Below are positions 2,332-20,362 of a stretch of DNA of 48,694 nucleotides, piece by piece. Each line of letters opens with the position of its first letter. The first letter of the stretch is position 1. The stretch lies in assembly GCA_016195085.1 (NCBI GenBank), contig JACQAG010000015.1:1-48694 (forward strand), read 5' to 3'. The position numbers and the translations under genes are program-made. Under the pieces are notes generated by a model that was given only the letters and a program-made list of their open reading frames with translations, was not told where the DNA came from and searched no databases. The stretch comes from Pseudomonadota bacterium. Its GTDB lineage: Bacteria; Pseudomonadota; Alphaproteobacteria; SHVZ01.

Positions 2332-2441
2332 CGCCATCCTCTCGGCTCCGATCGCTCGAAGAGATTACCCGAAATCGAAACGCCTCAAAGCGAGGTGAGG
2401 GCGGGTTTCGATCGGCTGAAAACCGCGCCCCTTGAGCAGCT

Positions 2442-2867: not shown

Positions 2868-2899
2868 GGCACGTTCACCTCGATCCCAAACTCACTCAC

Positions 2900-3610: not shown

Positions 3611-3614
3611 GGGC

Positions 3615-4148: not shown

Positions 4149-4180
4149 GGGGTTGCCTCGAGGAGCCTCGCCCGCCCGGC

Positions 4181-4552: not shown

Positions 4553-4581
4553 TTGTTGATCTCGTCCTTTTCGCTTCAGGG

Positions 4582-4977
4582 TTAAACGGGTCGATGACAG
4601 ACAGCCTCGATGCGATGGCCATCGGGGTCGATGACGAAGGCGGCGTAGTAGTTGGCATGGTAGTGCGGGCGAAGCCCGGGCGGCCCGTTGTCGCCGCCGC
4701 CGGCGCCCAGCGCGGCAGCATGGAAGGCATCGACGGATGCCCGGGAGGCGGCGCCGAAGGCGAGGTGGGTTCCGGGCGGCACCGGCATCGGCGCGTTCGT
4801 CGGCCCGACCGCGTTCAGCCAGAACATCGGCCGAGACGGCTCGCCAAAGCCGACCGCGGTATCGAATTCCATCACCCGGGCATAGCCCAAGGGCTTCAGC
4901 ACGGCATCGTAGAAGGCCGCACTTCGCTGCAAATCGGCGACGCCGAAGGATATGTGCTGGAGCATCGCGGTCATCAT
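4582..4977 (-). CDS. VOC-superfamily (glyoxalase/bleomycin resistance-like) protein
   Basis: The 131-aa single-module vicinal-oxygen-chelate protein starts [20 protein letters not shown], followed by [14 protein letters not shown] and, near the C-terminus, [15 protein letters not shown]. His8 and the late Glu in HRIEAVC match the usual metal-ligand positions of glyoxalase-like folds. Substrate is unknown; many such small proteins are annotated as lactoylglutathione lyase without proof. Its ATG overlaps the ffh stop codon by 4 nt (ATGA, 4974-4977), so it is probably translated by coupling to ffh, and rpsP starts 29 nt downstream. Finding it inside the ffh-rpsP junction is unusual. Confidence 0.88.
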
Positions 4978-6326
4978 CCGCGCCCGAACAGGCCCTTGAG
5001 CCCATGGCGCATCAGGCCTTTCTGCCCCAGCTTCGAGACCTGCTTCATCATCCGGCTCATGTCCTGGTACTGCTTCACCAGGCGGTTGACTTCGGGCACG
5101 CTGGTGCCCGATCCAGAGGCGATGCGGCGCTTGCGGCTGCCGTTCAACAGCCGCACATCGCGGCGTTCCGCCCGGGTCATCGAGGAGATGATCGCCTCCT
5201 GACGCTTGACCATGGTGTCGTCGATCTTGGCGCCGGCGAGCTGATCCTTGATCTTGGCGATGCCGGGCAGCATCCCCATGACACCGCCGAGTCCGCCCAT
5301 CTTGCGCAGCTGGCGGAGCTGGCTTGCCATGTCGTCGAGATCGAAGCTGCCCTTCTGCACCTTGAGGGCGAGCTTCTCCGCTTCCTCGCGGTCGATCGTC
5401 TCGGCGGCCTTTTCCACCAGGCTGACGACATCGCCCATGCCGAGGATGCGCCCCGCGATGCGATCGGGATGGAATTCCTCGATCGCATCCAGCTTCTCGC
5501 CCACGCCGATGAACTTGATCGGCGCGCCGGTCGCCTGACGCATCGAGAGCGCCGCACCGCCGCGAGCATCGCCGTCGACCCGGGTCAGCACGATGCCCGT
5601 CACTCCGATGCGCTCCTGAAAGCTCCGGGCAAGGTTGACCGCGTCCTGGCCGGTCATGGCATCGGCGACGAGCAGCGTCTCCGTCGGCCTGACCGCGTCG
5701 CGCACCGCGGCGACCTCCTGCATCAAGGCGTCGTCCACATGCAGGCGCCCGGCGGTGTCCAAGAGCACCACGTCATAGCCCTCGAGCCGACCCATGGCGA
5801 CGGCGCGCCGCGCGATCTCGACCGGCGATTCGCCCGCTACTACCGGCAGGGTGGCGATCTCGGCTTGGCGCCCGAGCTGGGCCAGCTGCTCCTGGGCCGC
5901 CGGCCGATAAACGTCGAGGGAGGCCATCAGCACCCGCTTCTTCTCGCGGGTCTGGAGGCGGCGGGCGAGCTTGGCCGTGGTGGTGGTCTTGCCCGAGCCT
6001 TGCAGCCCCATGATCAGGATCGGCACCGGGGGAACCGCCGCCAGCCGGAGCTCGCTGGCCTCGTGGCCCAAGAGCCGCACCAGATGATCGTGCACGATCT
6101 TGACCACCATCTGACCCGGCGTCACCGAGCGCAGCACGGCCTGGCCGACCGCCTCCTCGCGCACGCCGTCGACGAAGATCTTCACCACCGGCAAGGCCAC
6201 GTCGGCCTCGAGGAGGGCCACCCTGACCTCGCGCAGCGCGGCGGTGACGTCGACCTCGCTCAAGGCGCCGCGGCGCTTCAAACGGTCGAATACTTGACCC
6301 AACCGGCCGGCTAAGCTGTCGAACAC
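4974..6326 (-). CDS. ffh: Signal recognition particle protein Ffh
   Basis: SRP54-type GTPase that binds signal peptides of nascent membrane proteins and the SRP RNA, then docks with FtsY. The 450-aa product begins [20 protein letters not shown], matching the family N-domain. The GTPase G1 motif [14 protein letters not shown] lies near residue 108, then [18 protein letters not shown] and [10 protein letters not shown]. The Met-rich M domain ends with [17 protein letters not shown] and [13 protein letters not shown] start at 6326 is chosen because it aligns with other Ffh proteins and has AAAGGA upstream; an in-frame ATG at 6359 would add 11 residues. FtsY is encoded about 4 kb away on the other strand. 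Confidence 0.96.
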
Positions 6327-6671
6327 GGGAACGGTATCCTTTGCGGCGATCGGCCCCATCAAACGCGAACAGGGCCAAACACAAATGCGCCCGTGCGCGA
6401 ATCTCGCGGACGGACGGAGCCCCGAACCCTTCGGAGCCGGCAAGACACTCCTGCCGAAAGCGGGGCGACCCTATGATCCTGCCCGAAGGCTGTCAAGGCC
6501 AGCGGCCGGGGAGGTCATTGTTGGCAAGGCCCGAACAGAAAACCTGGCAACAACAGCAACGGCATGGCCGGACGAAAACTATGGTATCTTGTGATGTGGG
6601 GAACTACATTTGTCAGCGGTCGTAGTCCGCCGGCGACAATGCTATAGAGGGCTGGGCGGAAGGAGCTTGGG
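6327..6671. other. Divergent intergenic region between ffh and the PilZ cluster
   Basis: The 345 bases separating ffh (minus) from the first PilZ-like gene (plus) must hold promoters for both directions. I see no convincing ORF, hairpin or repeat. A TATAGA hexamer at about 6642-6647 is the best plus-strand -10 candidate, but no good -35 sits at the right distance. GGAAGGAGC just before 6672 is a good ribosome site. Confidence 0.4.
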
Positions 6672-7022
6672 ATGCTCGATTCTTTGAAAAAGCTCTTTGG
6701 TAAGAGCGATCCGGCGGCCAAAGGCGTGCCCGGTCGGCGCGTGGCGCCCAAGGGAGAGAGCGCGGTCATCCTCGACGGTCGGCGCTATCAGCTACGCAAT
6801 TGGAACACCGAAGGCTTTTTATTCGGCCCGTACACCGGCGACCTGGTGGCCGGGCGCCGGGTCAAGGTCGAGCTCATCGTCATGGACGGCGAGTTCAAGC
6901 TTCGCTGTTCGGCGGTGGCCACCATCAACCGAGTCGACGGATCGGGTGTCGACGCCAAGTTCTACTTCATCAGTCCAGAGCATAAGAAGCAAATCCAAGC
7001 TTACGTCTCTCACTACAGCTAG
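6672..7022 (+). CDS. PilZ-like domain protein, paralogue 1 (degenerate ligand motif)
   Basis: A 116-aa protein and the first of three tandem paralogues. After a short basic helix (MLDSLKKLFGK) it has the two-part signature used by PilZ domains to bind cyclic di-GMP, but altered: RxxxK at residues 23-27 instead of RxxxR, and NWNTEG at 43-48 instead of (D/N)xSxxG. The rest (FLFGPYTGDLVAGRRVKVEL, then KFYFISPEHKKQIQAYV) aligns with its neighbours, so the fold should be kept. PilZ assignment is by motif and could be a PilZ-related fold. With the Arg and Ser changes, this copy may bind the ligand poorly or not at all (inference). A strong GGAAGGAG ribosome site supports the start. Confidence 0.8.
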   Translation: MLDSLKKLFGKSDPAAKGVPGRRVAPKGESAVILDGRRYQLRNWNTEGFLFGPYTGDLVAGRRVKVELIVMDGEFKLRCSAVATINRVDGSGVDAKFYFISPEHKKQIQAYVSHYS

Positions 7023-7164
7023 GACCACGTTTTCGGCCATCCGCAATACTTTGATATTGAGAAAAATTTTATTTGGGTTTTACTAAAGTCAAAACCTTGT
7101 ATTTCTGTAATTTCCTTGACTTTCCTGCCTAATCTGGCAGCTTTCAAACAGTAATCGGGCGGGT

Positions 7165-7191
7165 GATTCGCCGGCGGAAACCGCCGGAATC
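7165..7191 (+). other. Small hairpin upstream of the second PilZ-like gene
   Basis: CCGGCGG (7171-7177) and CCGCCGG (7181-7187) form a perfect 7-bp stem with an AAA loop. GATT/AATC outside a 2-nt bulge extends it by 4 bp. It sits 20 nt before the start of the next gene and is not followed by a T-run, so it is not a classical terminator. The 189-nt spacer it belongs to is distinctly AT-rich at 7040-7120 and otherwise shows nothing clear. Confidence 0.35.
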
Positions 7192-7211
7192 CCTCATATT
7201 CGCGAGCATGG

Positions 7212-7577
7212 GTGGTGGCGATGCTGAAGGATCTGAAGAAGTTCTTCACCGAGTCGGTGTCGAGCGAGCCACGGCGCGTGGCGCCGCGGGTCGATGCCCG
7301 GGGTGAGGCCGTCGCGGTCATCGACAGCAAGCGCTACCGCTTGAAGAACTGGAGCACGGCCGGCGTGCTGGTCGGCCCCTATGGCGGCGGCCTCGTTGCC
7401 AAGCAGCGCAGCCGGCTCACCATGATCGTCAAGGATGGCAACTTCAATATTGAGTTCGACGCCGACGTGATCGTTACGCGCGTCGATGACAATGGGCTCG
7501 CCTGCAAGTTCTTCTATCTGAATCCTGCCTACAAGAAGCAGATCGAAGACTATCTGAAGTATTACGGCCACGGCTAA
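7212..7577 (+). CDS. PilZ-like domain protein, paralogue 2
   Basis: A 121-aa protein with the canonical PilZ ligand signature: RVAPR (RxxxR, residues ~22-26) and NWSTAG ((D/N)xSxxG, ~46-51). The following core, LVGPYGGGLVAKQRSRLTM and the KKQIEDYLKYYG end, is shared with its two neighbours. If the assignment is right, it is a cytoplasmic cyclic-di-GMP receptor of unknown output. The start is uncertain. GTG at 7212 gives MVAMLKDLKKFF, which aligns residue by residue with MVGVLDQVKRFF of paralogue 3; ATG at 7221 would give MLKDLKKFF as in paralogue 1. Confidence 0.82.
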   Translation: MVAMLKDLKKFFTESVSSEPRRVAPRVDARGEAVAVIDSKRYRLKNWSTAGVLVGPYGGGLVAKQRSRLTMIVKDGNFNIEFDADVIVTRVDDNGLACKFFYLNPAYKKQIEDYLKYYGHG

Positions 7578-7628
7578 CCGCCGCCGGTAAGGCCCCGTTA
7601 ACCATACGCGGGTAACCTGCCCGTCGGC

Positions 7629-8000
7629 ATGGTTGGCGTTCTCGATCAGGTAAAGCGGTTCTTCGCTCCGGAGGTTGGCGGCGCCAATCGGCGTCAGGCG
7701 CCGCGCGTCGATACGCCGCCGGAATGCGCGGTGTTCTTCGACGGCAAGCGCTTTCCCTTGAAGAACTGGAGCACGCTCGGCTTTCTCGCCGGTCCCTATG
7801 ACGGCGACCTCATTGCCAAGCAGCGCTGCAAGCTCAAGATCCATGTGCGCCAGGAGACCTTCGACATCGCCTTCGACGCCGAGGCGATCATCGTGCGCAC
7901 GGATGCGAGCGGCATCGCCGGCCGTTTCATCTTCCTGCCCCCGGACAAGAAGCGGCAAATCGAAGGCTATTTCGCCCACTTCGCGGCGTCCCCGCGCTGA
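7629..8000 (+). CDS. PilZ-like domain protein, paralogue 3
   Basis: A 123-aa protein, third in the tandem set and 51 nt downstream of paralogue 2. It carries RQAPR (RxxxR, residues ~22-26) and NWSTLG ((D/N)xSxxG, ~46-51), then FLAGPYDGDLIAKQRCKLKI and KKRQIEGYFAHF. The three proteins share the order helix, RxxxR, DGKR-type turn, NWsTxG, GPYxGdL and KKQI, so they clearly arose by duplication. There is no signal peptide or membrane segment. A sensor or adaptor role in cyclic-di-GMP signalling is inferred. No diguanylate cyclase or phosphodiesterase is encoded in the window. Confidence 0.83.
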   Translation: MVGVLDQVKRFFAPEVGGANRRQAPRVDTPPECAVFFDGKRFPLKNWSTLGFLAGPYDGDLIAKQRCKLKIHVRQETFDIAFDAEAIIVRTDASGIAGRFIFLPPDKKRQIEGYFAHFAASPR

Positions 8001-8041
8001 GCAGCGACCCGGACGCGGCCGGCCCTTTCTTTCCATGCAGA

Positions 8042-8071
8042 TAGACAGCTTGCCGGGCCGGGCCATATAAG
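8042..8071 (+). promoter_or_regulatory. Candidate promoter of dapF-mtaB-ftsY
   Basis: TAGACA (8042-8047) and TATAAG (8066-8071), 18 bp apart, each match the sigma-70 consensus hexamers at five of six bases. The expected transcription start falls within about a base or two of the dapF ATG at 8079. AAGG inside the -10 also sits at a plausible ribosome-site distance, which would only matter for read-through transcripts from the PilZ genes. Confidence 0.4.
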
Positions 8072-8078
8072 GCGCAGC

Positions 8079-8924
8079 ATGGATGGGCTGCCTTTCATCA
8101 AGATGCACGGCCTCGGCAACGACTTCGTCGTCGTCGATGCGCGTCAGCGCGCCTTCGCGCTCGATCCCGGGGCGGCACGCCGGATCGCCGACCGCCATAC
8201 CGGCGTCGGCTGCGACCAGCTCATCGTGATCGAGCCGGCGCGCGCCAATCTCGCCGACGCCTTCATGCGCATCGTCAATGCCGATGGCGGCGAGGTCGAG
8301 GCCTGCGGCAACGCGACGCGCTGCGTGGCCGACCTCATCATGCGCGAGAAGTCGGTCGGTCACGTCGTCATCGAGACCGGGGTCGGCCTCCTGGACGCGG
8401 AAGCGGCCGCCGATGGGCTGGTCAGCGTCGATATGGGGCCGGCCCGGTTCGATTGGCGCGACATCCCCTTGGCGACGGCCGCCGACCCTTTGCATCTCGA
8501 GGTGACGGTAGGGCCGCTCAAGGACGGGGTCGCGGTCAACATCGGCAACCCGCACGCGGTCTTCTTCGTCGCCGATGCGCAAGCGATTGATCTCGCCGCC
8601 TTCGGGCCGGTCATCGAGCGCCACACGCTGTTTCCCGAGCGCACCAATGTCGAAGTGGTGCAGGCGCTGGGCGCGGACCGGCTGCGCATGCGCGTTTGGG
8701 AGCGCGGCGTCGGCATCACGCGCGCCTGCGGCACCGGGGCTTGCGCCGCGGTCGTCGCCGCCAGCCGGCGCGGGATGGTGCCGCGGCGCGCCGAGGTGGT
8801 GCTCGACGGCGGCGTGCTCGCGATAAGCTGGGAGCGCGACAATCACGTGATCATGACCGGCCCGGTCGCCGTCAGCTTCACCGGCACGCTGGCGCCCGAC
8901 ATGGTCGGGCGAGCCGCGCCATGA
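8079..8924 (+). CDS. dapF: Diaminopimelate epimerase
   Basis: Converts LL- to meso-diaminopimelate for lysine and peptidoglycan synthesis by a two-base, cofactor-free mechanism. Both catalytic cysteines are visible: Cys76 in EACGNATRC and Cys217 in RACGTGACAA. The start MDGLPFIKMHGLGNDFVVVD is family-typical and the 281-aa length is normal. The stop overlaps the mtaB start by 4 nt (ATGA). The dapF-mtaB-ftsY order recurs in alphaproteobacteria. Confidence 0.97.
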   Translation: MDGLPFIKMHGLGNDFVVVDARQRAFALDPGAARRIADRHTGVGCDQLIVIEPARANLADAFMRIVNADGGEVEACGNATRCVADLIMREKSVGHVVIETGVGLLDAEAAADGLVSVDMGPARFDWRDIPLATAADPLHLEVTVGPLKDGVAVNIGNPHAVFFVADAQAIDLAAFGPVIERHTLFPERTNVEVVQALGADRLRMRVWERGVGITRACGTGACAAVVAASRRGMVPRRAEVVLDGGVLAISWERDNHVIMTGPVAVSFTGTLAPDMVGRAAP

Positions 8925-10213
8925 CCCTCGATGTTCTCACTTTCGGCTGCCGGCTCAATGCCTATGAGTCGGAGGTCATGCGCGGCTTGGCGAAGGAAGC
9001 CGGGCTCGCCAACGCCGTCATCGTCAACACCTGCGCGGTCACCCAGGAGGCCGAACGGCAGGCGTGCCAGGCGATCCGCCGCGCACGTCGCCTGCGCCCG
9101 GATGCCCGCATCATCGTCACCGGATGCGCCGCGCAGATCGCGCCGGAGCGCTACGCGGCGATGCCCGAGGTCGACCGGGTCCTGGGCAACGCCGAGAAGC
9201 TGACCCTCGCCGGCCTCGCCGACACGGCACCTCTGCTAGTCAACGACATCGCCAGCGCCCGCGAGACGGTAGTGCATCTCATCGACGGGCTCGACGGCCG
9301 CACTCGGGCGATCGTGCAGGTGCAGCAGGGCTGCGATCACCGCTGCACTTTCTGCGTGATCCCGCAGGGACGCGGGCCCAGCCGCTCGGTGGCGCTGGGA
9401 CCGATCGTCCAGCAGCTCCGGCATCTGACCGAGCGAGGCTGCCGGGAGGTGGTGCTGAGCGGTGTCGACGTCACCGCCTATGGCGCCGATCTGCCGGGAC
9501 GGCCGAGCCTGGGCCAGATGATCCGCCGCGTGCTGGCGCAGGTGCCCGACCTGCCCCGCCTCCGCTTGTCCTCGCTCGATCCGGTCGAGGTCGACGACGA
9601 CCTCTTCCGGCTCATCGCCGAGGAGCCGCGGCTGATGCCGCATCTGCATCTGAGCTTGCAAGCCGGCAACGATCTCGTCTTGAAGCGCATGAAGCGCCGG
9701 CACACGCGCGCCGAGGCGATCCAGTTCTGCCGGCGGGTGCGCGCGGTGAGGCCGGAGACGGCGTTCGGCGCGGATCTGATCGCCGGGTTTCCGACCGAGG
9801 ACGAGGGAATGTTCGCCGACACCGTGGCGCTGGTCGAGGCGTGCGATCTCGCCTACCTCCATGTCTTTCCCTATTCGCCCCGACCGGGCACACCGGCTTC
9901 GCGCATGCCGCAGACCCCTCAGGCGATCGCGCGCGAGCGCGCCTCCCGTCTGCGCGCGGCCGGTCGGGCGGCGCTGGGCCGCCATCTCGACCGTCGCGTT
10001 GGAAGCCTTGCCCAGGTGCTGGTCGAGCGCGATGGTTTCGGCCGGGCCGAGGATTTCACCCCGGTCATGCTGAAGGATGTCCGGCCGGGCGAGATCGCCA
10101 CCGCTCGGCTCGCGCATCGCAGCGATGAGGCGCTCCAGGGCGAGCGCATACCGGCTGCCAACGACGCTCCTTCAGTCGAAGCGATCGGATCGGAGGCGGG
10201 AATCGCGTCGTGA
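8921..10213 (+). CDS. mtaB: tRNA t6A37 methylthiotransferase MtaB
   Basis: Radical-SAM enzyme that converts t6A to ms2t6A at position 37 of ANN-decoding tRNAs. The 430-aa product has the N-terminal UPF0004 cluster cysteines Cys10 (FGCRLN), Cys38 (NTCAV) and Cys69 (TGCAAQ), and the radical-SAM cysteines 138, 142 and 145 in CDHRCTFC. The sequence GRGPSRS then follows, with a TRAM-like C-terminal part (GSLAQVLVERDGFGRAEDFT). The frame is open upstream, but ATG 8921 overlapping the dapF stop is the natural start. It overlaps ftsY by 4 nt (GTGA). Confidence 0.94.
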   Translation: MTLDVLTFGCRLNAYESEVMRGLAKEAGLANAVIVNTCAVTQEAERQACQAIRRARRLRPDARIIVTGCAAQIAPERYAAMPEVDRVLGNAEKLTLAGLADTAPLLVNDIASARETVVHLIDGLDGRTRAIVQVQQGCDHRCTFCVIPQGRGPSRSVALGPIVQQLRHLTERGCREVVLSGVDVTAYGADLPGRPSLGQMIRRVLAQVPDLPRLRLSSLDPVEVDDDLFRLIAEEPRLMPHLHLSLQAGNDLVLKRMKRRHTRAEAIQFCRRVRAVRPETAFGADLIAGFPTEDEGMFADTVALVEACDLAYLHVFPYSPRPGTPASRMPQTPQAIARERASRLRAAGRAALGRHLDRRVGSLAQVLVERDGFGRAEDFTPVMLKDVRPGEIATARLAHRSDEALQGERIPAANDAPSVEAIGSEAGIAS

Positions 10214-11142
10214 CCGGGTGGTTGGCGCGGCTCAAGACCGGTCTCGGCAAGACCGCTGCCCGGCTCGGCGGCGGCATTGCCGATCTCGTCACCAAGCGCC
10301 GCCTCGACCAGGCGATGCTGGACGAGCTCGAGGAGCTGCTGATCCAGGCCGATCTCGGCGTCGAGGCCGCCGGCCGGCTGATCGAGGATCTGAAGCAGAA
10401 CCGGTTCGACAAGGAAGTGACGCCCGACGAGGTGCGTCGGCTCTTTGCCGAGGACATCGCCCGGCTGCTGGCTCCGGTCCAGCGTCCGCTCACCGTCGAT
10501 CCCCGGCACCGCCCGCATGTGGTGCTGATCGTCGGCGTCAACGGCAGCGGCAAGACGACGACCTTGGGCAAGCTCGCCGCGCTGATGGCGGGCGAGGGGC
10601 GGCGCGTCATGGTGGCGGCCTGCGATACCTTCCGCGCCGCCGCCATCGAGCAGCTCGCCATCTGGTGCAGCCGTGCCGGCGTGCCGGTGGTCACCGGCGC
10701 GCCAGGGGCCGATGCGGCCGGCGTCGCCTTCGAGGCGCTCGAGCGGGCGCAGCGAGAGGGCATCGATGTGCTGCTGATCGACACCGCCGGCCGGCTGCAC
10801 AACAAGGCGGGATTGATGGCCGAGCTGGACAAGCTCATCCGGGTTCTGAAGAAGCGCGATCCTTCCGCTCCGCACGACACGCTGCTGGTCCTCGATGCCA
10901 CCATCGGCCAGAACGCGCATCAGCAGGTGGAGGTCTTCCGTGCGGTCGCCCAGGTGAGCGGGCTTGCGGTGACCAAGCTCGACGGCACCGCCAAGGGCGG
11001 CGTGCTGGTGGCCTTGGCCCAGCGCTTCGGCTTGCCGGTACACTGGATCGGCATCGGCGAGGGGCTTGAGGATCTTCGTCCGTTCGAGGCGGGGCCGTTC
11101 GCCCGCGGGCTCATGGGCTTGGAGGCGGAGAGCCACACCTAG
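10210..11142 (+). CDS. ftsY: Signal recognition particle receptor FtsY
   Basis: Membrane-associated SRP receptor GTPase that releases nascent chains from Ffh to the translocon. The 310-aa product has the NG domain: N-domain LDELEELLIQADLGVEAAGR, G1 GVNGSGKTTTLGKLA near residue 108, [25 protein letters not shown] and TKLDGTAKGG. It lacks a long acidic A domain; only a short amphipathic N-terminus (MTGWLARLKTGLGKTAARLGG) precedes NG, as in many alphaproteobacteria. The GTG start overlaps the mtaB stop by 4 nt. Confidence 0.96.
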   Translation: MTGWLARLKTGLGKTAARLGGGIADLVTKRRLDQAMLDELEELLIQADLGVEAAGRLIEDLKQNRFDKEVTPDEVRRLFAEDIARLLAPVQRPLTVDPRHRPHVVLIVGVNGSGKTTTLGKLAALMAGEGRRVMVAACDTFRAAAIEQLAIWCSRAGVPVVTGAPGADAAGVAFEALERAQREGIDVLLIDTAGRLHNKAGLMAELDKLIRVLKKRDPSAPHDTLLVLDATIGQNAHQQVEVFRAVAQVSGLAVTKLDGTAKGGVLVALAQRFGLPVHWIGIGEGLEDLRPFEAGPFARGLMGLEAESHT

Positions 11143-11226: not shown

Positions 11227-12207
11227 ATGCTGAAGCGCTTCGTCTTCGCCAGCGAGGATCGGCCGGACAGGGCCTGGCTGGCGCGCTTCGCCGCCGGCCG
11301 AAATGAAGCCGAGCGCTGGTATCTGGGGGGAGGCCTGGCGGCCCCGCCGACCGCCGCCGAATGCCGAGCCGCGCTCCGCCGCCACATGCCGGAGCTGATG
11401 CCGCATTATGATCGGGTCTGCGATCTGGTCGGCGACGACGATCTGGCCCACCGCATACTGAGCCATTACCGGCCGCCGCCGGTCATCGGCGGCTGCAGCC
11501 AGGCGGTCTGGCTCGGGGACGACGGCCCGGCGCTGGTGCGCAACTATGACTTCCCGCTCGATATCGTCTCCGATGGCTTCGAGGCGACCGCATGGTCCGG
11601 GCGCACAGTGGTCGCCAAGGCGCAGAGGCCCTGGGGCGGTTGTATCGACGGCATGAACGAGGACGGTCTGGTCGCAAGCCTGACGTTCGGCGGGAGTCGG
11701 GCTCAAGGCCGCGGGTTCTCGATCATCCTGATATTGCGCTATGTGCTCGAGACCTGTCGCCGGGTGGACGAGGCGATCACGGCGCTCAGCCGGATTCCGA
11801 TCGGGCTGTCGCAGAACGTGACCTTGCTCGACCGGTCGGGCGCCTACGCGACCCTGTTCCTCGGACCCGACCGCGCGCCGGCGGTCACGGCCGAGCCGCT
11901 CTGCACCAACCATCAAGAGCAGGTGGTCTGGCCCGAGCATGCTGCGATGTGCCGGACGATCGAGCGCCGCGACGCACTTCAGCACCGGCTCGCCGAGCCC
12001 GGCATGACACTGGTTCGGCTGGTCGAATGCTTCCTTGAGCCGCCGCTCTACTCCCGCCGGGCCGCGTCCCCGACCGTCTATACCGCGGTCTACCGGCCAA
12101 CCGAGGGGCGGGTCGACTATCTCTGGCCCGGAAAAACCTTTTGCCAGCGTATCGACCGGTTCGAACCCGGTGAATACACGCACGACTATGGCGCGCTCAT
12201 TCCATAA
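11227..12207 (+). CDS. C45-type autoproteolytic acyltransferase/hydrolase-like protein
   Basis: A 326-aa protein resembling the peptidase C45 / acyl-CoA:6-aminopenicillanate acyltransferase family of Ntn hydrolases. The sequence VIGGCSQAVWLGDDGP, followed by LVRNYDF, matches the pattern of a cleaved Gly-Cys bond with Cys90 as the exposed nucleophile and a downstream Asn/Asp pair. CIDGMNEDGLVASLTFGG and CTNHQE are further family-like segments. Members hydrolyse or transfer acyl groups on small amides; the substrate here is unknown. It starts 84 nt after ftsY on the same strand but is not part of the conserved ftsY cluster. There is no signal peptide, so a cytoplasmic location is likely. Confidence 0.75.
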   Translation: MLKRFVFASEDRPDRAWLARFAAGRNEAERWYLGGGLAAPPTAAECRAALRRHMPELMPHYDRVCDLVGDDDLAHRILSHYRPPPVIGGCSQAVWLGDDGPALVRNYDFPLDIVSDGFEATAWSGRTVVAKAQRPWGGCIDGMNEDGLVASLTFGGSRAQGRGFSIILILRYVLETCRRVDEAITALSRIPIGLSQNVTLLDRSGAYATLFLGPDRAPAVTAEPLCTNHQEQVVWPEHAAMCRTIERRDALQHRLAEPGMTLVRLVECFLEPPLYSRRAASPTVYTAVYRPTEGRVDYLWPGKTFCQRIDRFEPGEYTHDYGALIP

Positions 12208-12294
12208 CCACGAGGGCGGACGACCGCTTATGATTGGCGCTTAGGCGGACCCTGGCTATCGAACGAAACAGACATCCCAAACTTGCGTCACCAT

Positions 12295-12307
12295 CGTATG
12301 TCATACG
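12295..12307. promoter_or_regulatory. 13-bp perfect palindrome upstream of the ABC importer
   Basis: CGTATGTCATACG is a perfect inverted repeat (arms CGTATG/CATACG, single central T), 83 nt upstream of the binding-protein start. Size and GT-N-AC character resemble operators of GntR-family regulators. A TTGACA hexamer at 12309-12314 directly follows it but has no -10 at the right distance; TATAAC at 12356-12361 is the better -10 candidate with a weak -35. No regulator is encoded next to it. Confidence 0.4.
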
Positions 12308-12389
12308 CTTGACACTGCCTCGCCGTCGGCGCGATGGTCATCGCCAAGTCATAAATATAACTGAGCGCTCGGCGCCACGGGAGGGAATG

Positions 12390-13463
12390 ATGAGTTTGGC
12401 TGCGACGGAAGCCTCCGAACGCGGGCCGCATGACCGATCCAATGCCGCGAGGATCAGCAGGCGCAGTTTCCTGGGAGCCACTCTGGCTGCCCCTTTTCTG
12501 GCGAGGGCTGCCCGCGCCGCCACAAGCTTGAATGCCTATTCGATCTGGCCGGAGAACTATGCCCGCCCGATGATGGACGCGTTTGAGAAAGCGTCCGGCA
12601 TCCATGTCAACTTCATCAGGTTCTCGTCGGGCGAGGCGCTCGCACGCGTGATCGCGGAGAAAAGCAACCCACAGATCGACGTCCTGTTCGGCGGTCCGGT
12701 CGAAACCTTTACGGCTGGCCAGGGCAAGGACGTGTTCGAACCCTATAAGCCCGCTTCCTGGTCGGAGCTACCGGCGCGCTTCAAGGATGCCGGCGGCATG
12801 TGGACCGCGATGGCTGACGACCCGCTAGTTTTCATGGCCAACACGGAGTTCCTTAAGCAGCACAATTTAAATCCGCCGTCCTCCTGGGATGATCTGCTCA
12901 ATCCGGCCTATAAGGGCATGATCCAGATGGCCGACGCGCGCACCTCAGGGACCGCGGTGACGCGCATCTTCTCGATCCTGCAGATCCATAACCGCAACGA
13001 GGAGCAGGCTTTCGCATACATGAAGAAGCTCCGGCAGAACGTGCAGCTCTACACCAAGAGCGGTGGCGGTGGCACGCTACCTGTCGGCCTCGGCCAGGCA
13101 GGAGCCGGTATCTTCTTCATCGTCGATGCGCTCTACACGCGTCAGCAGGGCTACAACGTGCAGATCAGCTTTCCGAAAGAGGGCATCGGCTCGGCGGCGG
13201 AGTGCATCGCGCTCATCAAAGGTGCCAAGAATCCCGACGCCGGCAAGAAGCTCATCGATTGGGCGACGAGCCCGGCGATGCAGTCCCTGCTTGCCCCCAG
13301 CAAGATCAATTTCATTCCCGCCCATCCGAAGGTCGAGACGGACCCGAGCCTCGTCAGCGTGCTCAAGGGCGTCAAGATCATCGAGATCGATGACAGCTGG
13401 GCCGGGGCAAACCGCCAGCGCATCGTCGAACGCTGGATTGCCGAAGTCCTCAACGCCAGCTGA
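12390..13463 (+). CDS. ABC importer periplasmic substrate-binding protein
   Basis: A 357-aa extracellular solute-binding protein of the iron(III)/spermidine-type class. Its N-terminus carries a twin-arginine signal, SRRSFLG near residue 27, followed by a hydrophobic stretch and a cleavage-like ARAARAATS, so export by Tat is likely. The mature part has NAYSIWPENYARPMMDAFEK and a late INFIPAHPKVE segment. The paired tyrosines that bind iron in FbpA are not apparent, so the substrate is left open; phosphonate-type or metal ligands are alternatives. GGGAGGG sits 5 nt before ATG 12390; the ATG just before it is spaced less well. It leads a complete three-gene importer. Confidence 0.87.
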   Translation: MSLAATEASERGPHDRSNAARISRRSFLGATLAAPFLARAARAATSLNAYSIWPENYARPMMDAFEKASGIHVNFIRFSSGEALARVIAEKSNPQIDVLFGGPVETFTAGQGKDVFEPYKPASWSELPARFKDAGGMWTAMADDPLVFMANTEFLKQHNLNPPSSWDDLLNPAYKGMIQMADARTSGTAVTRIFSILQIHNRNEEQAFAYMKKLRQNVQLYTKSGGGGTLPVGLGQAGAGIFFIVDALYTRQQGYNVQISFPKEGIGSAAECIALIKGAKNPDAGKKLIDWATSPAMQSLLAPSKINFIPAHPKVETDPSLVSVLKGVKIIEIDDSWAGANRQRIVERWIAEVLNAS

Positions 13464-13466
13464 ACG

Positions 13467-15161
13467 ATGATCGCCGCATCGACCGCGCGGCGACGATGGC
13501 GCGTCGCGGATGATCCTTTGCGTGCGATCGTTATCGCCGGGCTCTGGCTGCTGCTCGGCGTTTTTGTTGTCTATCCGCTCGCGTGCCTGGTCGTTAGGGC
13601 CTTTAGCGACGACGGCGCCTTCACTCTCGCGCCGTTCGTCTCGACGTTGCGGAACGCAAACCATCTGCGCGCCTTGCGCAATAGCCTCCTGCTGGCGTTC
13701 TTGGTCGCGGTCGTCGGCACGGTTGCGGGATTCCTCTTCGCCTTTACCGCGGAGCGGGCGAGGATCTCGCGCAGCGCGAAGCGTCTCCTCGATGCGGTCG
13801 CGCTGCTACCGTTGATCTCGCCGCCTTTCACCTCCTCGATCGCTTTCGTATTCTCCTTCGGCCCGCGCGGATTGATCACGCATGATCTGCTCGGCCTGCA
13901 GAACACCCAGGTCTATGGGTGGACGAGCACGCTGGCAGCCGAGGCGCTCACCTATTTCCCGCTGGCTTACCTTGCTTTGCGTCCGCTGATCGCGTCGATC
14001 GGCGGCGACCTCGAGGAGGCAGCCTACAGCCTTGGCGGCTCTCGCTGGCGCGTCTTCCGTACGGTGACGCTGCCATTGACCGTGCCCGGCCTCGGCAACG
14101 CCTTCCTGCTGCTGTTCGCAGCCTCGCTTGCCGATTTCGCCACGCCGCTAATCCTCTCCGGCAACGATTTGCCGGTTCTGCCGACGGAAGCCTATCTGCA
14201 GATCACCGGCATGTTCGACCTCAAGAGCGGTGCGGTACTCTCGCTTCTGCTGCTGGCGCCGGCGGCGCTTGTCTTTCTGGCGCAGCGCCACTTCGTCGCG
14301 CGCCGCAGCTATGTGACGGTCACGGGAAAGGTCGGCGGCCAGGGCCGGCCGGATAGCGTCGCGCCTTGGACGCGGGTGTTCCTGATCTGCATCTGCGTCG
14401 CCGTCATGGCCTTCATCGTCTACCTCTACGCGCTCCTCGTCTATGCCTCGGCTGTCGTCGCGTTCGGTGCCAACGGGACGCTGACGCTCAACCACTACCG
14501 CGTCATCTTCACGGAGGGGCTGCCGGCGATCAGGGATACGCTGATCATCGCCCTCATCGGCATGCCGCTCGGCGGCCTCTACGGCGTGGTCGTCGGCTAT
14601 CTCGTGAGCCGCACGCGCTTCGCCGGCCGACAGGCGATGGAGATCGTCAGCATGATCAACTATGCGCTTCCCGGCACCATCGTCGGCATCGCCTATCTGA
14701 TCGCCTTCAACGACAAACCCTTCGTCCTGACGGGCACGGCCGCGATCATAATCGTCTGCTACGTCTTTCGCTACAGCCCGACCGGAATCCGCACCACAGT
14801 CGCGCTGCTGCAGCAGATCGACCGCAGCATCGAGGAAGCCTCCTTCAGCCTGGGAGCGGGAAGTTTTGCGACATTCCGGCGCATCATGCTGCCACTCATC
14901 TTGCCGGCTTTCTTCGCCGGCCTCGGCGTCGTCTTCATCCGCGCCATGACGGCGATCAGCGCCACGATCTTCCTCGTCTCGATCAACTGGACGCTGATCA
15001 CCGTACGGATCCTCGAGAACATGACCGAACTGTCGCTCGGCCCGGCAGCCGCCTTTTCGGTCTTCGTCATTGTCGTCGTTCTAGTCGTGACCAGCGCCCT
15101 CAATCTCGCGCTACGGCAGATGACGACGCCGGAGATGCGTCCATCGACGGTGGGCGGCTGA
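13467..15161 (+). CDS. ABC importer permease, two fused transmembrane domains
   Basis: The 564-aa inner-membrane permease consists of two BPD-type domains in one chain, as in FbpB/SfuB-like systems. Each half has an EAA loop for docking the ATPase: EEAAYSLGGSRWRVFRTV near residue 186 and EEASFSLGAGSFATFRRI near residue 457. About a dozen hydrophobic segments are visible. It starts 3 nt after the binding-protein stop and ends 3 nt before the ATPase start, which fixes the three as one operon. Confidence 0.92.
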   Translation: MIAASTARRRWRVADDPLRAIVIAGLWLLLGVFVVYPLACLVVRAFSDDGAFTLAPFVSTLRNANHLRALRNSLLLAFLVAVVGTVAGFLFAFTAERARISRSAKRLLDAVALLPLISPPFTSSIAFVFSFGPRGLITHDLLGLQNTQVYGWTSTLAAEALTYFPLAYLALRPLIASIGGDLEEAAYSLGGSRWRVFRTVTLPLTVPGLGNAFLLLFAASLADFATPLILSGNDLPVLPTEAYLQITGMFDLKSGAVLSLLLLAPAALVFLAQRHFVARRSYVTVTGKVGGQGRPDSVAPWTRVFLICICVAVMAFIVYLYALLVYASAVVAFGANGTLTLNHYRVIFTEGLPAIRDTLIIALIGMPLGGLYGVVVGYLVSRTRFAGRQAMEIVSMINYALPGTIVGIAYLIAFNDKPFVLTGTAAIIIVCYVFRYSPTGIRTTVALLQQIDRSIEEASFSLGAGSFATFRRIMLPLILPAFFAGLGVVFIRAMTAISATIFLVSINWTLITVRILENMTELSLGPAAAFSVFVIVVVLVVTSALNLALRQMTTPEMRPSTVGG

Positions 15162-15164
15162 TCG

Positions 15165-16256
15165 ATGGCGGGCGCATCTTCCGTTGGAATCCGATTGCTC
15201 CGCGTGTCGGCGGTGTTTCGCCACCCGGAGCGCGGGGATATTCCTGCTGTGCGCGATGTCGATCTCGAGGTGCGACCGGGTGAGCTCCTGACGCTTCTCG
15301 GCCCTTCGGGCTGCGGCAAGACGACAACGCTACGCATGATTGCGGGTTTTCAGGAGCCCACCTCCGGTCAAATCTTCATCGGCGAGCGCGAGGTAACGCA
15401 TGTGCCGGTGAACAAGCGCGACATCGGCTTCGTGTTTCAGAGCTACGCGCTATTTCCGCATCTGAGCGTATTCGAGAATGTCGCCTACGGGCTGCGCGTG
15501 CGCGGCATGTCCGGGAGCGAGGTGCGCGCCGCGGTCACCGACGTGCTCGCTCTCGTGGGATTGGAGGGCTTCGACCGGCGGCAACCCAGCGAATTGTCTG
15601 GTGGCCAGCAGCAGCGCGTTGCTCTCGCTCGCGCAATCATCATCAGGCCGCGGGTGCTGCTCTTCGACGAGCCTCTCTCAAATCTTGATGCTAAGCTCCG
15701 CGTCGAGATGCGGACCGAGATCCAGAGGCTTCAAGGGACGCTCGGCATCACAACCCTCTACGTCACGCACGATCAGGAGGAGGCCATGGCCATCTCCGAC
15801 CGCATCGCGGTGATGCAGGATGGCAGCATCGCCCAGCTCGGGACCGCCGAAGAGCTCTATCGGCGGCCCGCCTCCACCTTCGTAGCGGGATTCCTCGGCC
15901 GCGCAAATATCCTCTACGGTGTCGTGCGCGAGGTCGTCGGCAACCGCATGACCCTCGACGTGGGCGGGACGATGATGCGATTTAAGAGCCCGTTTTCCTA
16001 TACGCCGGGTACCAAATTGGGTGTCGTGATCCGTCCCGAGGCAATCTCGCTCGGCCCTTCGGACGAGAGCGTGAGTGCGGAGGTCGTGAGCCGCGTCTAC
16101 CTTGGTGACAAGGTCGAATACGTCGTGCGCTTGGCGGGGCAGATGTTGCAAGTCGTACGCTCCGACCCGCCTGAAGCGGAGATTTTCGCGCCAGGTCAGG
16201 ACGTCAGCCTCAGTCTGCCGAGCGAAGGTGTGCAGCTTCTCAGCGACAACTCTTGA
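15165..16256 (+). CDS. ABC importer ATP-binding protein with TOBE domain
   Basis: The 363-aa nucleotide-binding subunit of the importer belongs to the FbpC/PotA-like class. Walker A GPSGCGKTTT lies near residue 46, then the Q-loop FVFQSYALFPH, the signature LSGGQQQRVALA, Walker B LLFDEPLSNLD and the switch region YVTHDQEEAM. Residues after about 240 (FLGRANILYG, VVIRPEAISLG) form the C-terminal TOBE domain common in this class. Fe3+, polyamine or phosphonate uptake cannot be told apart from the ATPase alone. The 180 nt after its stop show no clear terminator before the next gene. Confidence 0.93.
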   Translation: MAGASSVGIRLLRVSAVFRHPERGDIPAVRDVDLEVRPGELLTLLGPSGCGKTTTLRMIAGFQEPTSGQIFIGEREVTHVPVNKRDIGFVFQSYALFPHLSVFENVAYGLRVRGMSGSEVRAAVTDVLALVGLEGFDRRQPSELSGGQQQRVALARAIIIRPRVLLFDEPLSNLDAKLRVEMRTEIQRLQGTLGITTLYVTHDQEEAMAISDRIAVMQDGSIAQLGTAEELYRRPASTFVAGFLGRANILYGVVREVVGNRMTLDVGGTMMRFKSPFSYTPGTKLGVVIRPEAISLGPSDESVSAEVVSRVYLGDKVEYVVRLAGQMLQVVRSDPPEAEIFAPGQDVSLSLPSEGVQLLSDNS

Positions 16257-16392
16257 TCGTCGCCGCTCTAAGGCAAAGTTGGTCTCCTCCCGGTTTCTTG
16301 GACTGACCTGAGGGAATGTCATCCGGCCACGGCGGCAAGCGCTATGTTTCGATGCGGCATGACGGACGATCCTTCGCAGCCGCGGCGGTTTC

Positions 16393-16418
16393 AACGATAC
16401 TGCCATAGATAACGATAC
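16393..16418 (+). promoter_or_regulatory. Direct repeat AACGATAC x2 before the dehydratase-like gene
   Basis: AACGATAC occurs at 16393-16400 and 16411-16418, an 18-bp spacing close to two helical turns, ending 18 nt before the ATG at 16437. Its position suggests a regulator site overlapping the promoter or leader, but the repeat is short and chance is possible. Confidence 0.25.
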
Positions 16419-16436
16419 CGGCTCGGGAGCGAATCC

Positions 16437-17594
16437 ATGAAGATCACCGCACTGGCGCCCTGGCTCGTCCGCGTGGACGGGATTGGATGGGGGGAATATT
16501 TGTTCGTCGAGGTCCGGACCGACGAGGGCATCACCGGCTGGGGCGAGGTCACGACGACGACGCGCATTGCCAACCGGGCCGTGGCGGGCATGATCCGCCA
16601 GCTCAACGACCTGCTGGTCGGCGAGGACCCGACCGAGATCGAGCGGCTTTGGCACAAGACTTTCCGGTCGTTTACCTACATGGGCACGCGCGGGGCGACC
16701 ACCCACTGCATCAGCGGCATCGACATCGCGCTCTGGGACATCCGCGGCAAGATGCTGGGCCTGCCGATCTACGAGTTGCTGGGCGGCAAGGTGCGCGACG
16801 ACATCCTGCTCTACACCCATCCCGACAGCCGCAAGCTCGCCACCGACGAAGGCCTGCGGGAGGAGATCGAGGCGATCGTCGCCTCCGGCCACACCGCGCT
16901 AAAATTCGATCCCTTCCCGCATCTCGACGGCAAGACCTGGGCGAACGACGGCTATCTGGCCGGTGACATGAGCAAGCAGGGCGAGAAGCACGCCGCCACC
17001 CTGACGGCCCGCATCCGCGAGGTCGCCGGCCCCGACATCGAGATCCTGATCGACGCCCATGGGCGCTTCAACGTGCCGACCGCGATCCGGCTGTGCCGGA
17101 CCCTGGAGGACGCCGGCAAGATCGACTGGTTCGAGGAGCCGGTGCCGGTCGAGAGCTACCACGCGCTGCAGCAGGTGCGCGAAAAGGTCAACGCCGCCAT
17201 CACGGTCGGTGAGCGGCTGCACACCCGCTGGGAGTTCGTGCCGATCCTTGAGAAGCGGCTGGCCGACTACATCATGCCCGACGTCACCTGGACCGGCGGC
17301 ATCACCGAGCTGAAGAAGATCGCGACCATGGCCGAGGCCTACTACATCCCGGTCTCGCCGCATGACGCCAGCGGCCCGATCAACGTCCTAGCCGGCGCCC
17401 ATGTCATGATGACGGTGCCAAACTTCTATCGCGTCGAGACGTCCCGCTACGACCTGAGCCGCTACAACAAGATGATCCAGGAGCCGCTGGACAACACGGG
17501 CGGCCGTCTGCACATGCCCCGCGCCCCTGGACTGGGCGTGGCAATGAACATGGACTATCTGCGCGCCAACGCCCTGGACGGCTTCGGCGGCTGA
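16437..17594 (+). CDS. Enolase-superfamily (mandelate racemase subgroup) sugar-acid dehydratase-like enzyme
   Basis: A 385-aa enzyme of the mandelate racemase/muconate lactonizing class, closest in pattern to D-galactonate dehydratase (DgoD-like). Likely Mg2+ ligands are Asp206 (LIDAHGRFN), Glu233 (FEEPVP) and Glu259 (VGERLHTRWEF). A His-Asp dyad is formed by His309 (SPHDASGP) and Asp282 (MPDVTWTGGI), as in acid-sugar dehydratases. It probably removes water from an aldonic or uronic acid; the exact substrate cannot be read from sequence. It follows an ABC importer and converges on a carbohydrate-type binding protein, which fits a sugar-acid uptake and breakdown role (inference). Confidence 0.85.
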   Translation: MKITALAPWLVRVDGIGWGEYLFVEVRTDEGITGWGEVTTTTRIANRAVAGMIRQLNDLLVGEDPTEIERLWHKTFRSFTYMGTRGATTHCISGIDIALWDIRGKMLGLPIYELLGGKVRDDILLYTHPDSRKLATDEGLREEIEAIVASGHTALKFDPFPHLDGKTWANDGYLAGDMSKQGEKHAATLTARIREVAGPDIEILIDAHGRFNVPTAIRLCRTLEDAGKIDWFEEPVPVESYHALQQVREKVNAAITVGERLHTRWEFVPILEKRLADYIMPDVTWTGGITELKKIATMAEAYYIPVSPHDASGPINVLAGAHVMMTVPNFYRVETSRYDLSRYNKMIQEPLDNTGGRLHMPRAPGLGVAMNMDYLRANALDGFGG

Positions 17595-17675
17595 GGCAAA
17601 AGACAGCGGCGCCATTGCTGGGCAAATGCCGGCAATGGCGCCGAAGCCAGGAACGCCCGGTCTACAGCGCCGGGC

Positions 17676-19187
17676 CTACATCAAGGAAAGCGCGTCCCGC
17701 ACCTTCTTGGCGGCCAAGTCGGTCGCCGCGGCGATCGACATCCTGCCGGTCAACGCGTTCTGCATCATCTCGGGCACGATGATGTTCATGATCTCGTCGG
17801 CCTCGGGGATCGTCGGGAACGGTACGCCGCCGGCAAGCATCGAAGTCGTGACGTTCAGGAACTTGATCTGCTCCAGCCGCTGCTTCATCCACTTGGTGCG
17901 GAAGCCGCGAATGTTGCCGGGATTCGAGCCGGTCCAGGCCAGCTTGACCGACCATTCCGGGCCGGTCATGAAGGCGACGAAGGCGCGCGCCGCCTCCAGG
18001 TCGAGGCCGCCGCCGACACTCCCGTTGTTGAAGATGTGCGCATTCCAGCCGCCGAACACGACGGCGCGGCGTACCGGCCCTTTCGGGATCAGGCCGTAGC
18101 GCATGTTGGCGACTACCGACTCGGCGACCGCCCGGTCGTCGCCGGTCGCCTTGCGGGCGCGGTCGACCATGACGGCATATTCGCTGGGATGGCTGATCAT
18201 CATGCCCAGCTGGCCGGCGATGAACGGGTCCTGGTTCTCGGTCTGGGTATTGGTGAGTGCCGAGCGCGGCACTGACTGGTCGCGCACATACATGTCGTAT
18301 GACGCCTGCAGGGCGGCCCGGGTGCCTTCGTTGTTCATGTAGACGCGCTGGTAGGTCGGGTGATCCTCGGCCTCGTCCAGGGCGCCTCCGCCATAGGCCC
18401 AGGCCTGCGGCATGAACCGGTAGGGCGTGTTGCCGGCGTTGGGCCGGGCCACCATGCCGTAGCCGTACTTGCCGGTCTTGTCCTTGATCTGCTTGGAGAA
18501 CTTGACAAGTTCGTCCCAGGTAGCCGGCGGCGTCTCGGGGTCGAGGCCGGCGTCGCGGAACAGCTGGGCGTTCCAGATCAGCGCCATGGTCTCGTTGTTG
18601 GTCGGGATGCCGTAGGTCTTGCCCTTCCAGGTGACCGACTTCATGGCGCCCGGCCAGAAGTCGGCCGAGTTGTAGCCGACATCCTCGGGTTTCAGCTCGC
18701 GCACCAAGCCCTTGGCGGCCAGCTCCGGGCTCCACATCAGCATAAGCCGCGACACCATCGGCGCCGCATTGCCCAGCGCCGCGGTGCGCAGCTTGTTCTG
18801 GATCTGGTTGTAGTCGAGACTGGTCTTCTCGACGGTGATGTTCGGGTAGGTCTTGCCGAAGGCTTCCCAGAACTGGGCCCAGATCTCATGGTCCAGCTTG
18901 GGCGACGCCTCATTTGGGCCGACCCACCAGAACGTAACCTTGCCCTTATAGGTCAGCGGCACCACCTTGGCGCATTCGGCCGCGGTGTCGACTTCAAGAG
19001 TTCCGGCAATGCTGTTGACGTAGTCGGGGGTCCACAGGGCCGTATCGACACCCCCGGCCGCCGCAGCGGACGCCTGTCCTGGCAGGATCAGGCCGGACGC
19101 CAGCGCGCCGGCGCCGGCCGAATATTGCAGAAATTTACGCCGATCGATAGTGGACGAAACGGCATCACGATTTCGCGAATCGGCCAT
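17676..19187 (-). CDS. Carbohydrate-type (CUT1-like) ABC substrate-binding protein, without transporter genes
   Basis: A 503-aa periplasmic binding protein of the family-1 sugar type. The N-terminus carries a Tat-like signal (DRRKFLQYS near residue 16, then a hydrophobic stretch ending QASAAAAG). The mature region has VTFWWVGPNEASP, PPATWDELVKFSKQIK and a C-terminal MQNALTGRMSIAAATDLAAKKV, typical of CUT1 proteins. AGGGAGG lies upstream of the ATG. Neither permease nor ATPase genes of the CUT1 kind lie beside it: downstream is the convergent dehydratase-like gene and upstream a transposase remnant. It may serve a transporter encoded elsewhere, or be what remains of a larger operon. Confidence 0.9.
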   Translation of the reverse strand: MADSRNRDAVSSTIDRRKFLQYSAGAGALASGLILPGQASAAAAGGVDTALWTPDYVNSIAGTLEVDTAAECAKVVPLTYKGKVTFWWVGPNEASPKLDHEIWAQFWEAFGKTYPNITVEKTSLDYNQIQNKLRTAALGNAAPMVSRLMLMWSPELAAKGLVRELKPEDVGYNSADFWPGAMKSVTWKGKTYGIPTNNETMALIWNAQLFRDAGLDPETPPATWDELVKFSKQIKDKTGKYGYGMVARPNAGNTPYRFMPQAWAYGGGALDEAEDHPTYQRVYMNNEGTRAALQASYDMYVRDQSVPRSALTNTQTENQDPFIAGQLGMMISHPSEYAVMVDRARKATGDDRAVAESVVANMRYGLIPKGPVRRAVVFGGWNAHIFNNGSVGGGLDLEAARAFVAFMTGPEWSVKLAWTGSNPGNIRGFRTKWMKQRLEQIKFLNVTTSMLAGGVPFPTIPEADEIMNIIVPEMMQNALTGRMSIAAATDLAAKKVRDALSLM

Positions 19188-19328: not shown

Positions 19329-19634
19329 GTATTCAAATATGAACAGGACCTACCCGAGCTCTCCTATCCTCTGCATGAGCGCGCATCCTGGTCACCGCCT
19401 GCGGCCGCATCTGCATGCATCGCAAGCGGGTCAACATCTCAACCGTGCTCGCCGGTCAAAAGCTCGGACTCAAGGAAGTCGACGATGGCATTTGGATCGT
19501 CAGCTTCATGCACTACGATCTCGGCTTCATCGACCTGGAGCAGAAAACCCTGCAACCCCTGGACAACCCGTTCGGCCCGAGGTTGTCACCCATGTCTTAG
19601 GTACGTTCTGTCACCCATCTGTCCGGGCCGGACA
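19329..19634 (+). mobile_element. Transposase remnant (C-terminal end, frameshifted) with terminal repeat
   Basis: Only the last ~90 residues of an integrase-core type transposase survive. EQDLPELSYPLHER (19341-19382) is in one frame and ILVTACGRICMHRKRVNIST (from 19385) in another, so a 1-nt deletion lies at about 19383. The second part runs on through GQKLGLKEVDDGIWIVSF to DNPFGPRLSPMS and stops at 19600. The 15-bp palindrome with arms TGTCCGG/CCGGACA at 19620-19634 probably marks the IS end. The 5' part of the element is missing. Family assignment (IS481-like) is from resemblance and uncertain. It lies 9 nt from the tRNA-Ser remnant. Confidence 0.7.
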
Positions 19635-19643
19635 GGTCGAGAT

Positions 19644-19737
19644 TGGCGGATGGGGTGGGATTCGAACCCACGAGACCCTTGCAGGTCTGCCGGTTTTCAA
19701 GACCGGCTGCCCGCTTCTTGTACCTCTGCGACATGCC
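19644..19737 (-). pseudogene. Degenerate tRNA-Ser(UGA) gene, 5' third damaged
   Basis: On the minus strand the 3' two-thirds are a textbook tRNA-Ser: anticodon arm CCGGT-CTTGAAA-ACCGG (anticodon TGA, decoding UCA), a long variable arm AGACC/GGTCT, T arm GTGGG-TTCGAAT-CCCAC, 3' acceptor strand CCCATCC, discriminator G and encoded CCA. The expected 5' acceptor strand GGATGGG is absent. The sequence starts GGCATGTCGCAGAGG, which pairs with only three of seven acceptor positions, and the D arm is out of register with no proper D stem. Overall length (94 nt) is near normal. I read it as a tRNA gene eroded by small indels, or a 3' copy left by an integration event; function is doubtful. Confidence 0.7.
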
Positions 19738-19822
19738 TAGGCACATGAACGAAGGCCGTTTCCAATCTGGAAGCGGTCATTGCCGCGCCAAGGCGACCCT
19801 TGCCCGCTTCTGAGTTCACGCC

Positions 19823-20362
19823 CTAAGAAGCGGCGTGCTCCGGCGGGTTCGTCCGCGGCGTCCAATGAGGGGTGGCCAGGGAGTCGCGGAAATGCTGGAG
19901 CGCCCAATTGACGCTGGGAAAGGCGATGTCCGCCCAGGGAATCTCCGGCCAGTGGTAGAGCGCCACCTCATGGGCCTCGCGGCCCGGAGCCACATCGGGC
20001 GAGATCAGGCGGGCGCGGTAGATGAGCTGCACCTGGCTGATGCGCGGAATGCTGTAGACCGCGAGCAGTCCTTCGATCTCGATCAGCGCGTTGGCTTCCT
20101 CTTCCGCCTCGCGGAGCGCGCCGGCCTCGGTCGTCTCATTGAGCTCGAGATAGCCCGCCGGCAGCGTCCAGAAGCCGCTGCGCGGCTCGATCGAACGGCG
20201 CACCATGAGGATCCGCTCCTCCCAGCGCGCCACCGAGCCCACCACGATCTTCGGATTCTCGTAGTTGATGAAGCCGCAATCCGGGCAGACCAGACGCAGC
20301 CGGTCGTCGCCCTCGGGTATGCGCGGAACGCTCGGGCCTTTTGGCGTGGGGTCGGAACCCAT
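19823..20362 (-). CDS. NUDIX hydrolase
   Basis: A 179-aa pyrophosphohydrolase. The Nudix box runs from Gly70 to about residue 94 (GYLELNETTEAGAL, then REAEEEANA) and fits GX5EX7REUXEEXGU except that the late Gly is Asn91. Catalytic Glu85, Glu88 and Glu89 are kept. The N-terminus has a CPDC pair (Cys26, Cys29) and INYENPK, as in NUDIX proteins with a small zinc-ribbon-like lead; only two cysteines are visible. FWTLPAGYLE resembles ADP-ribose/NADH-type members, but the substrate is unassigned. The frame is open further upstream through a repeat; ATG 20362 gives the family-like start. Confidence 0.88.
   Translation of the reverse strand: MGSDPTPKGPSVPRIPEGDDRLRLVCPDCGFINYENPKIVVGSVARWEERILMVRRSIEPRSGFWTLPAGYLELNETTEAGALREAEEEANALIEIEGLLAVYSIPRISQVQLIYRARLISPDVAPGREAHEVALYHWPEIPWADIAFPSVNWALQHFRDSLATPHWTPRTNPPEHAAS

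Follow-up and report, generated by a model that had tools for sequence, protein, structure and literature searches.

A 62-bp 3' part of tRNA-Ser(UGA) next to an IS481 remnant, very probably the attachment-site core of a tRNA-Ser element family

The window, by which we mean the whole stretch of DNA that was analysed, is the complete contig C15 (48,694 bp) of a source genome available as a 4.81-Mb draft in 95 contigs. Its gene order runs from ftsY through an ABC-transporter/enolase block, an IS remnant and a tRNA-derived core to a NUDIX gene, a DUF2336 gene and a single-copy pgk. The accessory block (11227-19187), as assigned with Pfam and NCBIfam, comprises a C45 acyltransferase, an ABC transporter (SBP, permease and ATPase), an MR/MLE enolase-like dehydratase and a second SBP. 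Comparison with the six other genomes of the family, which belong to a sister genus, showed that ftsY (10210-11142) is present in 6/6 and that the order from leuC to ftsY (922-11142) is kept as far as the contigs reach. In all six, mrdA-like sequence comes after ftsY (partial at contig ends), and it is followed by an mreB-like gene in the three whose contigs are long enough; the names leuC, mrdA and mreB are those which we presume from the protein sequences. The second SBP (17676-19187) gave no match at E ≤ 1e-30 in any of the six. Since the order on the ftsY side is thus unlike that of every sister genome, the core lies at a break of gene order that is specific to this lineage; this break alone is no proof of an insertion, because the surroundings of pgk also differ between the genera. 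The sister genomes were rejected as a view of the empty site, as they have no synteny on the NUDIX side and carry pgk in other surroundings in 6/6; no genome was seen to have the site empty, and the genus is represented by one genome. C63:19474-20973 holds a paralogue of the second SBP, 72% identical, with an ABC ATPase and an enolase-like gene close by, which suggests that another part of the genome has a related block. Elsewhere in the window, positions 40-202 hold a 163-bp repeat that is 96% identical to C85:32168-32328 and has a partial copy on C42, and positions 6380-6429 (minus strand) match the Rfam ffh sRNA at 38 bits (cut-off 35).

The IS remnant (19355-19634, plus strand) is one end of an IS481-family element, recognised by DNA and protein similarity, so that the transposase remnant which a preliminary description had placed beside the fragment is real. 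It retains the C-terminal 61 aa of the transposase (19415-19600), 47 of them identical to the corresponding residues in genome G034, and its DNA is 79-81% identical to seven places in that genome, whose full-length transposase matches the NF033577 IS481 model at 230 bits (cut-off 224).

The core is a 62-bp 3' part of tRNA-Ser(UGA) on the minus strand, which begins with the anticodon stem's 5' strand at 19705 and ends with the CCA at 19644. The anticodon stem-loop with UGA, the long variable arm, the T arm, the discriminator and the CCA are all intact on our reading of the minus strand, as the preliminary description had held for the part from the anticodon arm onward. When the span is extended to 19737, its 5' acceptor strand (GGCATGT against CCCATCC) pairs at three of the seven positions required, the same count as reported before. 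No tRNA gene was called by ARAGORN in the whole window. The covariance scores, named earlier as a check on tRNA function, fall below cut-off with both models: 22.2 bits against 29 for RF00005 and 30.7 bits against 47 for RF01852. By the former model the displaced fragment at C6:130120 scored 22.0 bits and the intact tRNA-Ser(UGA) 62.3 bits. The window fragment is without tRNA function.

The 5' region had been described as eroded; the results showed that it is absent instead. The 40-base upstream flank scored 2.0 against the tRNA 5' half, a score equalled or exceeded by 93.6% of 2000 shuffles, while in the control the flank of the intact gene scored 28 and 0/1000 shuffles reached this score. 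A dispersed non-tRNA repeat occupies 19722-19825 on the same side of the fragment, with two copies on C3 and one on C42 at 75-79% identity. Given that the flank does no better than its shuffles and that the repeat begins at 19722, the tRNA-like part starts abruptly, at about 19706-19711. We also considered an inverted (fold-back) origin of the flank, of the kind described below for C6:130138, and rejected it, as 17% of shuffles reached the score of the best of five comparisons. At C3:107487-107542 (minus strand; nhmmer E 2e-8) there is a solitary, eroded att core of the same family as the window core, with a copy of this dispersed repeat on either side.

An intact tRNA-Ser(UGA), which the preliminary description had proposed to seek elsewhere in the genome, was found at C6:126816-126905, with a tyrosine recombinase beside it at C6:127025-128011 (PF00589, 103-104 bits). 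After these two genes come six displaced 3' copies of the tRNA, at C6 positions 130138, 149285, 155557, 166262, 172068 and 175322, the whole spanning 48 kb (126816-175613) up to the end of the contig at 175613. In five of the six copies the 62-bp core is joined to an arm of about 125 bp to form a unit of 187-188 bp, and these units are 86-93% identical in pairwise comparison. At the start of the arm are two sites of the TTGGGACA type, spaced by 11 bp; the fifth copy deviates at the second. In the interval between tRNA and integrase, arm sites lie at +67, +78 and +87 from the CCA, with an inverted one at +112. Sites were also found at +68 and +79 after core 155557, so that the 10.7-kb segment from 155.6 to 166.3 kb retains both arms and no integrase. 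No such pair follows cores 130138, 149285, 166262, 172068 or 175322, although single sites occur at +104 after core 166262 and at +96 after core 175322. At core 130138, tRNA positions 126843-126880 recur in reverse complement as C6:130117-130154, and the near-palindromic anticodon stem is the point at which this inverted piece joins a forward core. The inverted piece is clear (0/1000 flank shuffles reach its score), and the fusion looks like the outcome of att-site recombination in inverted orientation.

PF00589 matched once on C6, beside the tRNA, and no second integrase was found in the cargo scan, which took in 34 of the 44 gene calls from 126935 onward. Apart from the integrase and a nearby nucleotidyltransferase-family gene, the scanned cargo is mainly for transport and catabolism: acyl-CoA dehydrogenases, thiolases, enoyl-CoA hydratases, an AMP-binding ligase, ABC transporters, and SDR and aldolase-like proteins, accompanied by regulators of the TetR and GntR types; NCBIfam gave no match for one scanned gene. 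The locus thus holds att-bounded segments without an integrase, and on these sequence features we describe it as a CIME-type array, which the integrase may mobilise, either in cis or in trans. One cargo gene, at C6:168051-169274 (minus strand), matches the AhpD-related (seleno)protein family NF041238 and has an in-frame TGA at C6:168416 in the context CLY-TGA-T, beyond which the reading continues for more than 100 residues. ARAGORN reported a tRNA-Sec at C84:53862-53958, and the array may carry a selenoprotein; the papers found on selenoproteins carried by islands bear only loosely on this. A second possible array was seen at C85:30637-38753, where three tRNA-Leu(UAA) genes that look full-length, two being divergent, and one 3' fragment lie within 8 kb; no PF00589 integrase was found on that contig.

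All six displaced C6 copies share 95-99% identity with the window core. Against C6:172068-172138 this core showed 98.6% identity over 71 bp (BLAST E = 6e-28), far beyond chance, and an nhmmer model built from five C6 units matched it at 19642-19706 with E 9.6e-20. The 71-bp match takes in a stub of 9 bp after the CCA (19635-19643, minus strand) that is identical to the 9 bp after the CCA at C6:172068, and which is probably what remains of the other (P') side of the element. The arm of about 125 bp is lacking on the 5' side of the window core, where the 5' half of the anticodon stem reads tRNA-like CCGGTC as opposed to the arm-type CGCTC, and no TGGGAC arm site was found within 150 bp after its CCA.

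The cores on C15 and C6 have in common a variable arm (AGACC..GGGTCT) and a T stem (GTGGG..CCCAC) that differ from those of the resident tRNA-Ser(UGA). Owing to this difference, the fragment is most likely to be traced to a pool of elements and not to the resident gene. Elsewhere in the class there are tRNA-Ser(UGA) genes that match the cores at up to 98%, and the tRNA-Ser(UGA) genes of the sister genus differ from them. The arm was considered as a class-wide feature and rejected as such, since among the matches listed at E ≤ 1e-13 for 385 genomes, the source genome included, the 188-bp unit extended past its tRNA part in the source genome only. Related integrases were found at E ≤ 1e-50 in 19 of the 385 genomes, the source genome included. 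Of 11 loci around such integrases, seven have a tRNA (Arg, Pro, Val or Leu) and none a tRNA-Ser; likewise, neither a tRNA-Ser nor an att unit was found near the five integrase relatives (32-51% identical) given by another search, which finds close relatives only.

Together, these data indicate that the window sequence is very probably the att core of a tRNA-Ser element family. Its tDNA 3' end is complete to the CCA and starts at a crossover subsite, and the cognate intact tDNA and a tyrosine recombinase are both present in the source genome, with the intact tRNA on another contig (C6) and core genes on both flanks of the fragment. We read the element family as one that targets the anticodon loop of tRNA-Ser(UGA), with the window fragment as a core attachment site. 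The suggestion that the fragment is the scar of an integrated element therefore stands, on the strength of the intact tRNA-Ser(UGA), its adjoining integrase and six sister 3' fragments; the other half of that interpretation, a decayed second gene copy, is not supported, as no residual tRNA sequence is left on the 5' side and 19722-19825 is a dispersed non-tRNA repeat.

As to how the scar arose, we favour, by somewhat better than even judgement, integration at a secondary site followed by IS481-associated loss. A circular form of the element (arm-core-arm) would have entered by recombination at a secondary site outside any tRNA gene, with the NUDIX gene on one side and the ABC block on the other, yielding a foreign left flank, the core and an element side; insertion of an IS481 element and deletion would then have removed the arm and the other end of the element, with the core and 9 bp surviving and the ABC block at 11.2-19.2 kb as possible remaining cargo. 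It is possible, then, that this block is former cargo of the element. Consistent with secondary-site integration are the identity of the core to all six C6 copies, the 9 extra bases common with C6:172068, the junction at the anticodon and the departure of the site from the gene order of all six sister genomes; the missing 125-bp arm, the tRNA-like anticodon-stem 5' half and the shortness of the 9-bp extension are points against it. A direct repeat at the far side of an island, which the preliminary description had proposed to look for, is missing: with the model of the five C6 units the window yielded one att-like match above noise, the next having E = 7.2, and no second att or arm copy. No island with two ends was hence found in the window, and as the missing second end is explicable by erosion, the secondary-site mechanism is put forward as a proposal.

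Secondary-site integration was preferred to its main rival, a rearrangement in which the fragment began as one of the att sites on C6, or as the far end of that array, and moved beside the NUDIX gene and pgk through recombination between att or IS copies; we hold this to be unlikely, though it deserves serious weighing. It would account for the gene-order break, where the accessory block replaces the mrdA-like sequence of the six sister genomes, and odd att recombination seems to have taken place at C6:130117-130154; the C6 array, moreover, is cut by the contig end inside a repeat. That terminal repeat is common to the ends of contigs C45, C1 and C88, none of them C15, with the window no more than a candidate for the far end of the array. 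Against a rearrangement, core genes flank the fragment on both sides (leuC to ftsY on one, the single-copy pgk on the other), the arm found at five of the six C6 copies is absent, and gene order is loose between the two genera anyway.

A still bolder reading, which we think doubtful, would have the one tyrosine recombinase beside tRNA-Ser serve a standing array of integrase-free catabolic cassettes, all of which end in one and the same arm and a tRNA 3' core. It would also drop or fuse cassettes at further places in the chromosome, the window scar being one of these, and could do so in inverted orientation, as at C6:130138, so that the whole would be an integron-like platform on a tRNA gene.

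It is improbable that the IS481-type element, by transposing with adjacent DNA, brought the tRNA 3' end along. The remnant does start 9-10 bp after the core, and one of the IS copies in G034 likewise starts just after a tRNA 3' end; that tRNA, however, is a different one, the other six G034 copies, among the matches listed, cover less of the query's tRNA part, and we know of no mobilisation of flanking DNA by IS481. Less probable again is a second tRNA-Ser(UGA) gene copy that decayed in place: the 5' strand of its anticodon stem is complete (CCGGTC) and its 3' 62 bp are near-perfect, but decay that spared these 62 bp while erasing the rest at one point is implausible, and upstream there are only the shuffle-level flank and the repeat from 19722. 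A chimera of the assembly might be suspected in a 95-contig draft at a site that joins repeats (att core, IS remnant and dispersed repeat), yet the join is internal to the contig and the sequence beyond the 71-bp match is unlike every C6 copy, which leaves this explanation very unlikely.

What appeared to be an eroded tRNA is settled as a recombination scar and not a decaying gene. The scar directs attention to a large composite island in another part of the genome, where at least six att-bounded segments follow a single integrase; the genus has one genome available for comparison. Such arrays bear on how metabolic operons can travel without mobility genes of their own, and the window copy suggests that sites outside tRNA genes can receive their cores as well. 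The C6 array with its single integrase is of more interest than the window fragment.

A literature search that combined partial tRNAs with other subjects gave no papers. Several known systems offer a comparison. When a tyrosine recombinase uses a tRNA gene as its target, the outcome is an intact tDNA together with a displaced fragment, and in the Islander collection, as outlined in its report, the anticodon subsite is used in 2083 of 3919 islands (PMC4383910). The window fragment resembles the displaced tDNA fragments described there in being a clean 3' fragment through the CCA, broken at the anticodon subsite, with cognate tDNA and integrase in the genome, and it departs from them in that it lies on another contig than the tDNA, so that a position downstream of the tDNA and an island between the two are putative at most (PMC4383910). 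The tandem ssrA islands of Dehalococcoides, as presented in PMC3146451, are bounded by direct repeats of the target 3' end with a conserved flanking motif and carry metabolic cargo; 15 of the 31 are without an integration module and are read as cis-mobilizable elements. The row on C6 is a close parallel in its repeat-bounded layout, metabolic cargo and integrase-free members, whereas the Dehalococcoides islands as portrayed there involve serine recombinases and a tmRNA target in place of a tyrosine recombinase and tRNA-Ser, and our row is on C6 and not in the window (PMC3146451). Accretion of CIMEs is described as the stacking of elements whose integrase has been lost and whose att sites (attL/attR) have been kept (PMC5704250); the C6 array is similar in its integrase-free att-bounded segments beside an integrase-bearing element, mobilisation being putative here (PMC5704250). 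For SGI1, secondary-site and tandem integration are both documented in PMC2297512, and on the preferred reading our element family likewise occupies a primary target, an intergenic secondary one and a tandem row; SGI1, as treated in that source, concerns whole elements and a protein gene, thdF, as primary target, whereas here a scar alone is found at the non-tRNA site (PMC2297512). All of this is of known kinds, with a displaced tDNA fragment in the window and an accretion of cis-mobilizable elements on C6.
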